A stretch of 64,000 nt of DNA from an uncultured Clostridia bacterium (lineage in GTDB: Bacteria > Bacillota > Clostridia > Christensenellales > Aristaeellaceae), in assembly GCA_946536315.1 (NCBI GenBank), contig CAMNEH010000001.1:98467-162466 (forward strand). Direction: 5' to 3'. The notes below the pieces were generated by a model. It was not told the DNA's origin. It searched no databases and worked only from the letters and a program-made list of their open reading frames with translations. The position numbers and the translations under genes are program-made. Below are positions 37,560 through 62,498 of this stretch, piece after piece (within the stretch, counting starts at the first letter, position 1; the number at the start of each line of letters is the position of its first letter).

Positions 37560-39887
37560 ATGCGGCGTAACTGCGGAAGAACGATCATATATACATTGGT
37601 ATTCGCACTGCTCGTGAGCGGCTGGGCATGCGCCGGGGACGGCATCCGGCTCAGCGCCGAGCGCCTGACGGTCGGCGAAACGCTGATCATCGAGGTAGAG
37701 GATCAGGCCCAGCAGCGCGCGATGACGCTGCTGCGCGACGGGACGCAGGTCAATACCGGCGCGCTGACGCAAGCCCGGCACGCCGCGCTGTACGCGCGTG
37801 AGCCGGGACAATACACGCTCATCGTCCAGCCCGAGGGCGGGCAGGAGTCGCGCGCGGCATTTACCGTATATGAGGAGCTCGATGTCACGCTGAACCCGGA
37901 TCACATATCCGCAGGAATGGGGGAGCGGCTGACCGCCGTGGCGGCGGCGCAGGGCGGTGTTCCGCCGCTCAGGTACGAGTTTTCCGTCACCAGCGGCAGC
38001 CGGCGCGTCGCGGCGCAGAACGGGGACAGCGCCAGGTTTGAGTGGGTGCCCTTCGAGCAGGGCGATATGAGGCTGACGGTGACAGTCACCGACGCTGCGG
38101 GGCATACCGCTTCTGCCGCGGGCACGGTCGAGGTCAGCGATCAGGGCGGCATCGCCGTGACAGGCGACACGCAAACCGTATTGGGTCAGGGCGGCATCCG
38201 CCGGCTGACGGTCCAGAGCCCGGGTCCCTGGAGCGCGAAAACGGATGAGGACTTTATCACGCTGCTGAATGATTGTGGTGAAGCGGGCGATGAGCTGCGA
38301 TTCGCGGTCGGCGCGCTGAACGGAGACGCGCGGACGGGCCGCATCACCCTGAACAGCCTGGGCCTGAGCTGCGATGTGACCGTGCGCCAGGTGGCTGACC
38401 GCGAAGAGGAAGAGGAAGTATATCTGTTCAGCAGCGTCGGCGACCGGATCACGGTCAACGGACAGAGCAATGTTTCCTGGCTCTGTCCCGCGGACGGCGC
38501 CGGTACGCTGACGGTGGACATATCGGCCAGCGGAGAATGGACAGTGGCCTCCGATGCCAGATTCGTGCGCTGGGAGCGCGAGGGAGACCTGCTCCGGATC
38601 TACGCGGAGGCGAATACGTCCGCGCAGCCCCGGAACGCGAACCTGCTGCTCAGCTGCGGCCAGTCCGGCGCGGCGATCGGTATCGCGCAGCCCGGCGCTT
38701 CCGCCGGCGCAAGTGTGCGGGAGGTCATCCTCGACCGTGACCGCGGCGCGGCCTATATGGACCAGGTCAGCGCTATGGTCCTCACGGATGAGACGGCCAG
38801 CCGCGTCGGTGTGATCGTAGACCGGCAGGCGCCTGTGTGGACGGAGGCCGGCCGGGCGGAGCGCACGGAAAACGGGCTGCGCTGGCGATTGACGCTGCCG
38901 CTGACCGGCGCCGGCGCGCAGAGCTGGCTGTTTGTCGCCGCCAATGATCAGGGCAGCGCCGATAAGGCGCTGGCGGTCGTCAATGTCGAAGCCGAGGCGC
39001 CCATGGTAGTGGGCGATGTGGAATACGCGGACGACGGCCGGGGATTCAGCGTGTGGGCGACCAGGACTGTACAGAGCGTCGAAACACTGGATGAGCAGGG
39101 AGAGGTCATGCGGACCTACCGCGCCAGCCAGGCGAAGGTGGATGAAGCGGCCGATGTGAGCGGACGGTACGTCCGCTGGACGCTGACGGTGACTGGCAGC
39201 GCCCGGCCTTCCTCCGTGCGCGCGGGGGATACGCAGATCAGCCTCGATTGGCCTGAAAGGACGGCGGATGATGCCCCGGCGCAGGAGGAAAACGCTTTTC
39301 AGCTGTACAGCCAGGAGGACGGGACATGGCATGAAGTGCCCTACCGCAAAAGCACGCTGGAGCATTCGGGCTGCGCCATTTTCGCGCTCAGCCACGCCCT
39401 GCAGCTGCTGGGCCATACCGAGCCGGAAAGCCTCCCCGCGCAGCTGGCGAAAACCTATGCCTTCTGCCTGGTGGACGGCGGAACGCTGAATTCCACGCTC
39501 GTGGGCAACGCAGCGAAGGCGTTCGGCTTCAAAACCAAGTTCAACCTGTACAGGACGAAGGAAGAAATCGTCAGGTTTTTCAAACAGGGCGCGGTCTTTT
39601 CCTTCTCCGTCGCCAGAGGACATATCGCGCTGACGGACCGGCTGAGCGCGGATGGGAAAATGTGCCATATCATCGATTCCGCGCCGAGGGCGACGTTCAG
39701 CAAAATCAAAAACGAGACCCCGATGCTGTATGACGAGGCCTCGAAAAACTATGTACCGCTGTCGAGCCCGGCGGAGATTCCCGGGCTGCGCTACTATGTC
39801 GATACGGAAGGCTACGGCGCCGCGGAATACTGGCTGAGCCTGGACTATGTCACATCGCGGGGCGTGCGGCTGATCCTGCGGCAGTGA
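37560..39887 (+). CDS. Secreted multidomain protein: Ig-like/BACON-like repeats plus C-terminal C39-like papain-fold domain
   Basis: Signal peptide; BACON-like segments (GDRITVNGQSNVSWLCPADGAGTLTVDISASGEWTVASDARFVRWERE...); C-terminal Cys/His/Asp blocks EHSGCAIFALSHALQLLG, ARGHIALTDRLS, CHIIDSAP. Confidence 0.7.
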   Translation: MRRNCGRTIIYTLVFALLVSGWACAGDGIRLSAERLTVGETLIIEVEDQAQQRAMTLLRDGTQVNTGALTQARHAALYAREPGQYTLIVQPEGGQESRAAFTVYEELDVTLNPDHISAGMGERLTAVAAAQGGVPPLRYEFSVTSGSRRVAAQNGDSARFEWVPFEQGDMRLTVTVTDAAGHTASAAGTVEVSDQGGIAVTGDTQTVLGQGGIRRLTVQSPGPWSAKTDEDFITLLNDCGEAGDELRFAVGALNGDARTGRITLNSLGLSCDVTVRQVADREEEEEVYLFSSVGDRITVNGQSNVSWLCPADGAGTLTVDISASGEWTVASDARFVRWEREGDLLRIYAEANTSAQPRNANLLLSCGQSGAAIGIAQPGASAGASVREVILDRDRGAAYMDQVSAMVLTDETASRVGVIVDRQAPVWTEAGRAERTENGLRWRLTLPLTGAGAQSWLFVAANDQGSADKALAVVNVEAEAPMVVGDVEYADDGRGFSVWATRTVQSVETLDEQGEVMRTYRASQAKVDEAADVSGRYVRWTLTVTGSARPSSVRAGDTQISLDWPERTADDAPAQEENAFQLYSQEDGTWHEVPYRKSTLEHSGCAIFALSHALQLLGHTEPESLPAQLAKTYAFCLVDGGTLNSTLVGNAAKAFGFKTKFNLYRTKEEIVRFFKQGAVFSFSVARGHIALTDRLSADGKMCHIIDSAPRATFSKIKNETPMLYDEASKNYVPLSSPAEIPGLRYYVDTEGYGAAEYWLSLDYVTSRGVRLILRQ

Positions 39888-42352: not shown

Positions 42353-42787
42353 TCACCTCCTCAGCCCAATGCGCCGGGCGATGGCGTAAAGCCGGCTGTG
42401 GGCGCGTATCACAAGTATCCTGAGCGGATAAATGAATGTCCAGAGCCGCGCGTACGCGCGATAGGCCCGGCTGGTTACGCTGTATTGCCTGCCGTTGCGC
42501 TGGAACCCGGTCAGCAGCCCGATGACCGCCTCATCCGGCACCCGCTCCAGCGCGTAGGTGTTGTCACCCCTGAACAGGTAGTAGTCCTTCCGCACCCGGA
42601 TGACCCGGTGCAGGACATAGCTGGCGCCGCGCCTGTACAGCGCGACGTCATATTTATGCAGACGCGAATCAGGGACCTGGAGTATGACCAGGTCCCTGTT
42701 CTGCCGCAGCATCGGCTCCATACTGACGCCCTTGGTTTTGTACACTAACTGGCCGTCCCGCGCGAGGAGCATCTCAAATGTGCTCAT
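42353..42787 (-). CDS. S24/S26 signal-peptidase-like protein, part of the putative RiPP cassette
   Basis: YKTKGVSMEPMLRQNRDLVILQV (Ser box), HKYDVALYRRGASYVLHRVIRVRKDYYLFRGDN; C-terminal hydrophobic segment. Confidence 0.83.
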   Translation of the reverse strand: MSTFEMLLARDGQLVYKTKGVSMEPMLRQNRDLVILQVPDSRLHKYDVALYRRGASYVLHRVIRVRKDYYLFRGDNTYALERVPDEAVIGLLTGFQRNGRQYSVTSRAYRAYARLWTFIYPLRILVIRAHSRLYAIARRIGLRR

Positions 42788-43103: not shown

Positions 43104-43253
43104 TCAGTTGTCGCCACCGATGGAGGTGGTGTAGGTGTTTCCGGCAGAGTCCTGATAAGTGACGCTCATGCCGCTGATGAAACCGCTGGTCAGAATCACG
43201 TTGTCATTCGCGATATCGACCAGTTCCATGCTGGGGGTTACATACTTCTCCAT
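43104..43253 (-). CDS. Putative RiPP precursor peptide (49 aa)
   Basis: MEKYVTPSMELVDIANDNVILTSGFISGMSVTYQDSAGNTYTTSIGGDN; strong SD AGGAGG-6 nt-ATG; Y-x2-P-x-M leader motif; between HPrK-like and PqqD-like genes. Confidence 0.8.
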   Translation of the reverse strand: MEKYVTPSMELVDIANDNVILTSGFISGMSVTYQDSAGNTYTTSIGGDN

Positions 43254-43287
43254 GTCAATTCCTCCTGAAAAGAGCTTGAAGCTATAC

Positions 43288-44251: not shown

Positions 44252-44364
44252 GCCGTTATGCGGATGGGCTCCGTGCGATGCAGCGGTGTGAACCCTGTCA
44301 GGTCCGAAAGGAAGCAGCAGTAAGCGCAAGGCGCATGTGCCGCGGTTCTGTCTGTCCGTATGGC
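44252..44364 (+). ncRNA. ffs: Bacterial small signal recognition particle RNA (4.5S-like)
   Basis: Conserved GGTGTGAACCCTGTCAGGTCCGAAAGGAAGCAGCAGTAAG apical domain; 5' gccgttatgcgga partly complementary to 3' tccgtatggc; followed by a T run. Ends approximate. Confidence 0.93.
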
Positions 44365-61542: not shown

Positions 61543-62498
61543 TGGCGGCGCTGATCGCCGAGGGCCTCGGCAAGCGCTATGGCGAGCGGCAGGCGCTCAC
61601 GGACGTTTCCTTCAGCCTGAGCGGCGGGGAGCTGGTCGGGCTGATCGGACAGAACGGCGCGGGCAAAACGACGCTGCTGCAGCTGCTGGCGGGCCGCCTC
61701 GCGCCGAGCGCGGGCCGGGTGACGCTCGACGGGCACGACGTGCTGTGGGAGCCGGAGCACTGCCGCGCGCAGATCGGCTACCTGCCTGAAAAGCCGGGTC
61801 TGTACGACGAAATGACGGTTGAGGCGCATCTGCGCTTTCTGTGCAGGGTGCGCGGCGTCGTGCCGGAGGACATCGCGCCGCACGTGGCGGAGATCGCTGA
61901 GCGCACCGGCATTCAGGATGCGCTCGGGCGGCGCGTCGGCAACCTGTCCAAGGGCTTCCGTCAGCGCGTGGGGATCGCCTCCGCGCTGGTCGCGCATCCG
62001 GCGGTCATCCTGCTGGACGAGCCGACGTCCGGTCTTGATCCGGTGCAGATCCACGAGGTCCGCCAGCTGGTCAGCGAGCTTTCCCGGGACCGGCTGGTCA
62101 TCCTGTCCACGCATATCCTGCGCGACCTGGACGGGCTGTGCTCCCGCGCGCTGATCCTGCATGAAGGCCGGCTGATCCGCGACCTGCGCATCCGTGAGGA
62201 GGCGCTGCGTTACCGTACGCTGCGCGTGGAGCTGGCGATGGGGAAGGAAGCGGCGATGAAGCTGCTGGCATCGGTGCCCTCGGCCGAGCGCGTGGAAGCG
62301 CTGGATACGGCGGTCCCCGGGCAGACAGCGGCGCTGCTGACCGGCCCGCACGACGCGCCGATAGAACGGCAGCTGTTTGAGCTCGCGAGCCGGCACAGCG
62401 CGCCGATCCTCGCGCTTCATCCGGTCCGCAGCGAGCTGGAGGAGATTTTTCTGTCCGCGATTGGAGGCGAAGCGGTTGACGCTCATCTGGAAGCGTGA
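61542..62498 (+). CDS. ABC transporter ATP-binding protein
   Basis: Walker A GLIGQNGAGKTTLLQLLAG, NLSKGFRQRVGIASALVAHPAVILLDEPTSGLDP. Confidence 0.97.
   Translation: MAALIAEGLGKRYGERQALTDVSFSLSGGELVGLIGQNGAGKTTLLQLLAGRLAPSAGRVTLDGHDVLWEPEHCRAQIGYLPEKPGLYDEMTVEAHLRFLCRVRGVVPEDIAPHVAEIAERTGIQDALGRRVGNLSKGFRQRVGIASALVAHPAVILLDEPTSGLDPVQIHEVRQLVSELSRDRLVILSTHILRDLDGLCSRALILHEGRLIRDLRIREEALRYRTLRVELAMGKEAAMKLLASVPSAERVEALDTAVPGQTAALLTGPHDAPIERQLFELASRHSAPILALHPVRSELEEIFLSAIGGEAVDAHLEA

Follow-up and report, generated by a model that had tools for sequence, protein, structure and literature searches.

The stretch of DNA analysed here (64,000 nucleotides, hereafter the window) contains a compact cassette of five genes, all on the minus strand, in the order HprK-like kinase, precursor peptide, PqqD-type RRE, SipW/LexA-fold S26 peptidase and NTP_transf_5 protein (Table 1). 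The intergenic gaps are short, with 34 bp between kinase and precursor, 45 bp between precursor and PqqD, 10 bp between PqqD and peptidase and 6 bp between peptidase and NTP_transf_5, and the five ORFs are all intact with conserved catalytic motifs. The second gene (window:43104-43253, minus strand) translates to the 49-aa sequence MEKYVTPSMELVDIANDNVILTSGFISGMSVTYQDSAGNTYTTSIGGDN*. With its strong ribosome-binding site, its place in an operon-like cassette and its homologues, this small ORF is a genuine gene. The peptide has no direct match in Pfam, NCBIfam or PHROGs, and a PDB sequence search gave no meaningful match. The translation agrees with the residue positions given in an initial annotation of this ORF (Y4, P7, M9 and T22-S23-G24), to which E10 can be added, and with its statement that Cys is absent. 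It also agrees that a count beginning at G24 gives S, V and T for positions 7-9 and puts the first Asp at position 12; if this Gly opens the core, there is no Asp or Glu at core positions 7-9 and the classical ring acceptor is missing. The kinase gene and glyA flank a bacterial small SRP RNA (RF00169, 59.4 bits; 44262-44360, plus strand), immediately upstream of the cassette. On the downstream side, positions 37560-39887 of the opposite (plus) strand encode a protein of 775 aa that carries BACON and PKD-like domains and has a signal-peptide-like start.

Table 1. Features of the cassette, in window coordinates.
Feature	Coordinates	Strand	Basis
HprK-like peptide kinase, 247 aa	43288..44031	-	P-loop SGTGKST and NDDKP intact; homologue alignment; AlphaFold fold
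AGGAGG Shine-Dalgarno of precursor	43261..43266	-	7 nt 5' of ATG
RiPP precursor peptide, 49 aa	43104..43253	-	Translation, homologues, leader profile
Conserved N-terminal leader region, residues 1-23 (YxxP, residues 4-7; T22-S23 terminal)	43185..43253	-	Ungapped family alignment
S23, candidate kinase target, putative counterpart of LPP core S3	43185..43187	-	Ser in 52/72 members and LPP precedent (PMC13381572)
Variable core, residues 24-49, Cys-free	43107..43184	-	Homology to cores G003:C37 (L065) and G132:C35 (L117)
PqqD-type RRE, 86 aa	42798..43058	-	PF05402, 1.8e-13; TbiB1 structure match; conserved in 16 cassettes
SipW/LexA-fold (S26) serine peptidase, 144 aa, candidate leader peptidase	42353..42787	-	Homologue alignment, AlphaFold fold
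NTP_transf_5 nucleotidyltransferase, 363 aa	41255..42346	-	PF14907, 3.2e-39

The kinase has no match in Pfam, nor in the PDB when searched as a single sequence; profile and fold searches lead to PEPCK/HPr kinase, and its AlphaFold model (pLDDT 96) matches the PEPCK/HPr-kinase fold with a probability of 1.00. Sixteen columns are invariant across 23 homologues, in which the P-loop, HGS, NDDKP and GxPWxGK motifs show little or no variation. The protein encoded beside the precursor, for which the initial annotation had suggested a binding test, is the RRE: it belongs to PF05402, and its best solved-structure match is the lasso RRE TbiB1, followed by TfuB1 and, weakly, LppB (9x8z). In the peptidase, S22, H60 and D75 are invariant in 20/20 homologues. 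Its model (pLDDT 95) matches the folds of LexA and signal peptidase I and has no N-terminal membrane helix; the match to TIGR02228 (3.3e-6) is below the cut-off. Many related cassettes carry an exporter gene between S26 and NTP5. No ABC transporter or MsbA-like exporter was matched between 37.5 and 52 kb of the window, and the only weak match (61587-62114) lies about 18 kb away. In another locus of the same genome (L002, 1489-2574), a single ORF combines an HprK-like kinase with a C-terminal PqqD domain.

Kinase homologues are found in 61 of the 201 genomes of the taxonomic family, and a scan of named genomes returned more than 580 relatives, mainly from gut and rumen Bacillota. Using profiles for the five proteins on 120 loci, we observed that HprK-PqqD-S26-NTP5 cassettes recur in Bacillota of gut and rumen, with precursors of the same leader type adjoining them. 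A leader profile searched against 5132 small ORFs (E up to 0.05) recovered 78 distinct precursors, nearly all near HprK/PqqD genes. Among the 233 small ORFs of the 64-kb window preceded by a Shine-Dalgarno sequence, the precursor obtained a leave-one-out leader score of E = 8e-11, the runner-up being at E = 1.5; a leader score of at least 6 was reached by 38 ORFs in the real sequence versus none in reversed sequences taken as a null. The leader consensus reads Y-x-x-P-x-[M/L]-E-[I/V]-[V/I]-x-[F/I/L]-x-x-[E/D]-[D/N]-[V/I]-I-[T/L]-[T/A]-S. The spacing between the Pro and the Ser is fixed at 16 residues in most precursors, and variability starts directly past that Ser. The alignment of homologous small ORFs, suggested as a check in the initial annotation, recovers a conserved leader at the Y, P and [M/L] positions in the 78-precursor family; invariance of Y and P in the first 39 leaders is by construction, because these were gathered by requiring Y..P, and the later profile search also returned relatives lacking the Pro. 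The same leader type is common to kinase-only cassettes and to cassettes with radical-SAM enzymes. The ORF is, as first annotated, an RRE-dependent RiPP precursor with a YxxP leader of the kind bound by PqqD-type RREs.

This organization can be compared with that of the linear polyphosphorylated peptides (LPPs), described for the lpp cluster of Paenibacillus alginolyticus (Popov et al., Nat Commun 2026; PMC13381572). In that system the RRE recognizes YxxP and assists the SipW-like LppS in removing the leader, and LppK adds several phosphates to one conserved Ser, its sole site, which neither Thr nor Tyr can replace; deletion of lppK abolishes phosphorylation and deletion of lppS abolishes leader removal (PMC13381572). 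No activity of LppN was seen in the host used for that work, and the final products of the LPP system have so far not been identified (PMC13381572). Like the lpp cluster, the window encodes a co-located HprK-like kinase, a discrete RRE, a SipW-like peptidase and an NTP transferase, with no cyclase, and its precursor likewise has YxxP (Y4-x-x-P7), a conserved N-terminal region and a variable C-terminus. Both also have a conserved Ser at a similar distance past the Pro, 16 residues here (S23) and 15 for the phosphorylated Ser of LPPs (PMC13381572). In a weak profile alignment to 9x8z (E 0.16), N33, Y60 and D70 of the window RRE coincide with three LppB residues in contact with the leader Tyr and Pro (contacts from PMC13381572).

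The two systems also differ. The leader consensus here is Px6[F/I/L]x2-3[E/D][D/N][V/I]I-T-T-S instead of Px9Fx[T/A]xxS. The LPP motif (Px9Fx[T/A] / YxxPxVLxHQxIxFETxxS) was found in 0 of 72 family members, the window included. Unlike the LPP core cluster, the window has no adjacent MsbA-like exporter, and radical-SAM enzymes accompany many of its relatives, whereas the term radical SAM is absent from the LPP paper (PMC13381572). Because Px9Fx[T/A] and an adjacent exporter gene are missing, we call the system LPP-like and do not file it as a proven LPP; by analogy, it most likely works in the same way.

We consider it likely that the 49-aa peptide is matured by the cassette in which it is encoded into a linear RiPP of the LPP kind, modified by the kinase. 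In this pathway, the 86-aa PqqD-type RRE would bind the leader through Y4 and P7, and the HprK-like kinase would phosphorylate a conserved Ser, with S23 as the most likely site. The leader would then be cut off near I20-G24 by the SipW-like S26 peptidase, to which the RRE would present it. We propose that leader removal takes place somewhere in residues 20-24; by analogy with LPPs, cleavage could occur three residues before the putative TS|G site. The phosphate may receive a sugar or a nucleotide through the NTP_transf_5 protein; in pseudomycoidin, a nucleotidyltransferase adds a hexose to the phosphorylated peptide (PMC8498205). The product would be released by an exporter encoded elsewhere. 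The cassette itself would descend from a clostridial branch whose radical-SAM/SPASM enzyme also modifies a Cys-containing core.

The choice of S23 comes from the comparison of cores. The initial annotation had pointed to the Ser/Thr/Tyr-rich core as a phosphorylation target, a rationale that we rejected because it fails as a family feature: radical-SAM-free relatives have short acidic cores, 4/31 of them without any S, T or Y, and the hydroxyl residue common to most of these relatives is S23, which the initial annotation had placed at -1. A Ser occupies this position in 52 of the 72 members (26/41 maturase-linked and 26/31 maturase-free precursors). Since S, T and Y are all missing from four maturase-free cores, a core hydroxyl is not the general target of the kinase, which leads us to propose S23 as its site; short cores of this sort would favour the conserved Ser where leader and core meet.

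Two cores from related genomes are homologous to the window core, GCIIVSSSVSWEDGSGNRYTTQGTGF (G132:C35) and AGCIIVSQTVNWSDGAGNSYSTTVHE (G003:C37); in comparisons of the window core with these two, only 0-1 of 20,000 shuffles scored equally high. Both have Cys and Trp where the window core has Phe and Tyr (C to F, W to Y), and their W-x-D corresponds to Y33-x-D35. The G003 peptide adjoins a radical-SAM/SPASM enzyme. In the closest cassettes a radical-SAM gene usually lies between precursor and PqqD, where the window has only its 45-bp gap. Neither of the features of a radical-SAM/SPASM RiPP of the sacti- or ranthipeptide type, a maturase in the cluster and a core Cys, is present in the window, and the best match to such a maturase in its own assembly is 24% identical.

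About half of the clostridial relatives carry a radical-SAM maturase, and its presence is tightly associated with that of Cys in the core. Of the 41 cores that have a radical-SAM gene at most 2.5 kb away, 40 contain Cys, versus 2 of the 31 without, and at the loci of both these Cys cores a radical-SAM gene is located 3-4 kb away. Counted by HprK row, maturase and Cys agree in 51/52 cases. The Fisher test (p 1e-16) takes no account of relatedness and is not to be interpreted on its own; a tree-based test gave 5 independent pairs, with a mean of 4.7 concordant and 0 discordant and p = 0.0625 at best. The single exception to the rule is a precursor from a Muribaculaceae MAG (L155, 5477-5578), with adjacent radical-SAM genes and a core, GGGDMQAEH, lacking Cys. 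The HprK of the window falls inside a clade of 22 rows (support 100/99) in which 17 loci are maturase-bearing. The same genome (G000) encodes three more precursors of this leader type (L221 8784-8954, L222 13672-13854 and L225 7030-7191), each with a radical-SAM neighbour and a core Cys. On the simplest reading, this looks like a secondary loss of the maturase and of the core Cys in the window lineage. The cassette being without maturase and the core without Cys, the window product is probably uncrosslinked.

A maturase could also act in trans. Because the assembly is only 83% complete and the cassette parts are split in G003, an enzyme from the unassembled part of the genome might crosslink the core, for example at Y33-x-D35, the Y-x-D position being kept in the window. 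In G003, which belongs to the same genus, precursor, radical SAM and PqqD (L065) are on one contig and HprK and S26 (L071) on another, and in G132 the homologous precursor has no adjoining enzymes and a full cassette lies on a different contig. Nevertheless, the best match in the assembly is only 24% identical and 40/41 maturase-linked cores have the Cys that the window core lacks, so we regard this explanation as unlikely. Still less probable is a decaying remnant, in which the maturase has been lost and the precursor and tailoring genes persist without a product. The cassette is indeed nested among maturase-bearing relatives, and its core has lost both Cys and Trp; against this stand five intact ORFs with their catalytic motifs, the strong ribosome-binding site and the complete maturase-free cassettes that are common in other genomes.

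The initial annotation had described the precursor as lasso-like, an assignment with some apparent support: the YxxP leader, a Thr at -2 and a Gly at +1 if cleavage occurs at TS|G, the structural match of the RRE to TbiB1, and the lasso clusters of paeninodin and pseudomycoidin, which resemble the window in having an HPr kinase homologue, a PqqD-type B1 protein and, in some, a nucleotidyltransferase (PMC8498205). Unlike these clusters, the window has no B2 protease, no macrolactam synthetase and no Asp/Glu acceptor, and its leader motif carries Tyr, not Trp. In the assembly, which is 83% complete, nothing matched the B2 transglutaminase-like leader peptidase (PF13471) above the cut-off. The cassette encodes neither a lasso peptidase nor a cyclase, and the cluster has no PF00733 protein; Asn-synthase matches are on contigs C68 and C17, off the window contig, and the sole clear protein of this type in the assembly is a separate gene on another contig. 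Close cassettes elsewhere also have no cyclase, the leader type is shared by kinase-only and radical-SAM cassettes, and the cores of relatives are incompatible with a macrolactam. With B2, cyclase and ring acceptor all missing, we reject the lasso assignment, and a lasso precursor, even with an unusual ring, is highly improbable.

The SynChlorMet (Scm) cassette includes a PqqD-like protein. It also brings together the HprK-related ScmC and radical-SAM proteins (NCBIfam TIGR04249/TIGR04250), unlike the window, which has no radical-SAM gene in its cassette. The window kinase matches ScmC weakly (E 4e-4), with 19.8 of 125 bits, far under the curated cut-offs.

These loci may form a large, undescribed branch of LPP-like RiPPs in Clostridia of gut and rumen, marked by a leader consensus of its own, in which about half of the members would undergo both phosphorylation by HprK and radical-SAM/SPASM crosslinking of a Cys core, making hybrid phosphorylated and crosslinked peptides, and in which the window would record the joint loss of the radical step and the Cys. 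A search of the open-licence literature found nothing linking HprK or HPr kinase, radical SAM and a precursor peptide or RiPP, which is no proof that none has been published; a clostridial branch with its own leader and a coupled maturase-Cys trait appears to be new. A kind of RiPP reported in 2026 in Bacilli is extended to many Clostridia of gut and rumen, in which the leader consensus differs and a radical-SAM enzyme is often present as well. From the almost perfect coupling of maturase and core Cys one can predict the residue on which the radical-SAM enzyme acts, and the window cassette provides a natural comparison without maturase and without Cys. At four loci (L179, L212, L218 and L175), giant secreted proteins of 1168-1703 aa are encoded directly upstream of the precursor. 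They were considered as possible partners; Pfam gave only LRR or transglutaminase-core domains, in three of them, or weak repeat matches. At three of these loci a small lipoprotein is encoded between precursor and kinase.
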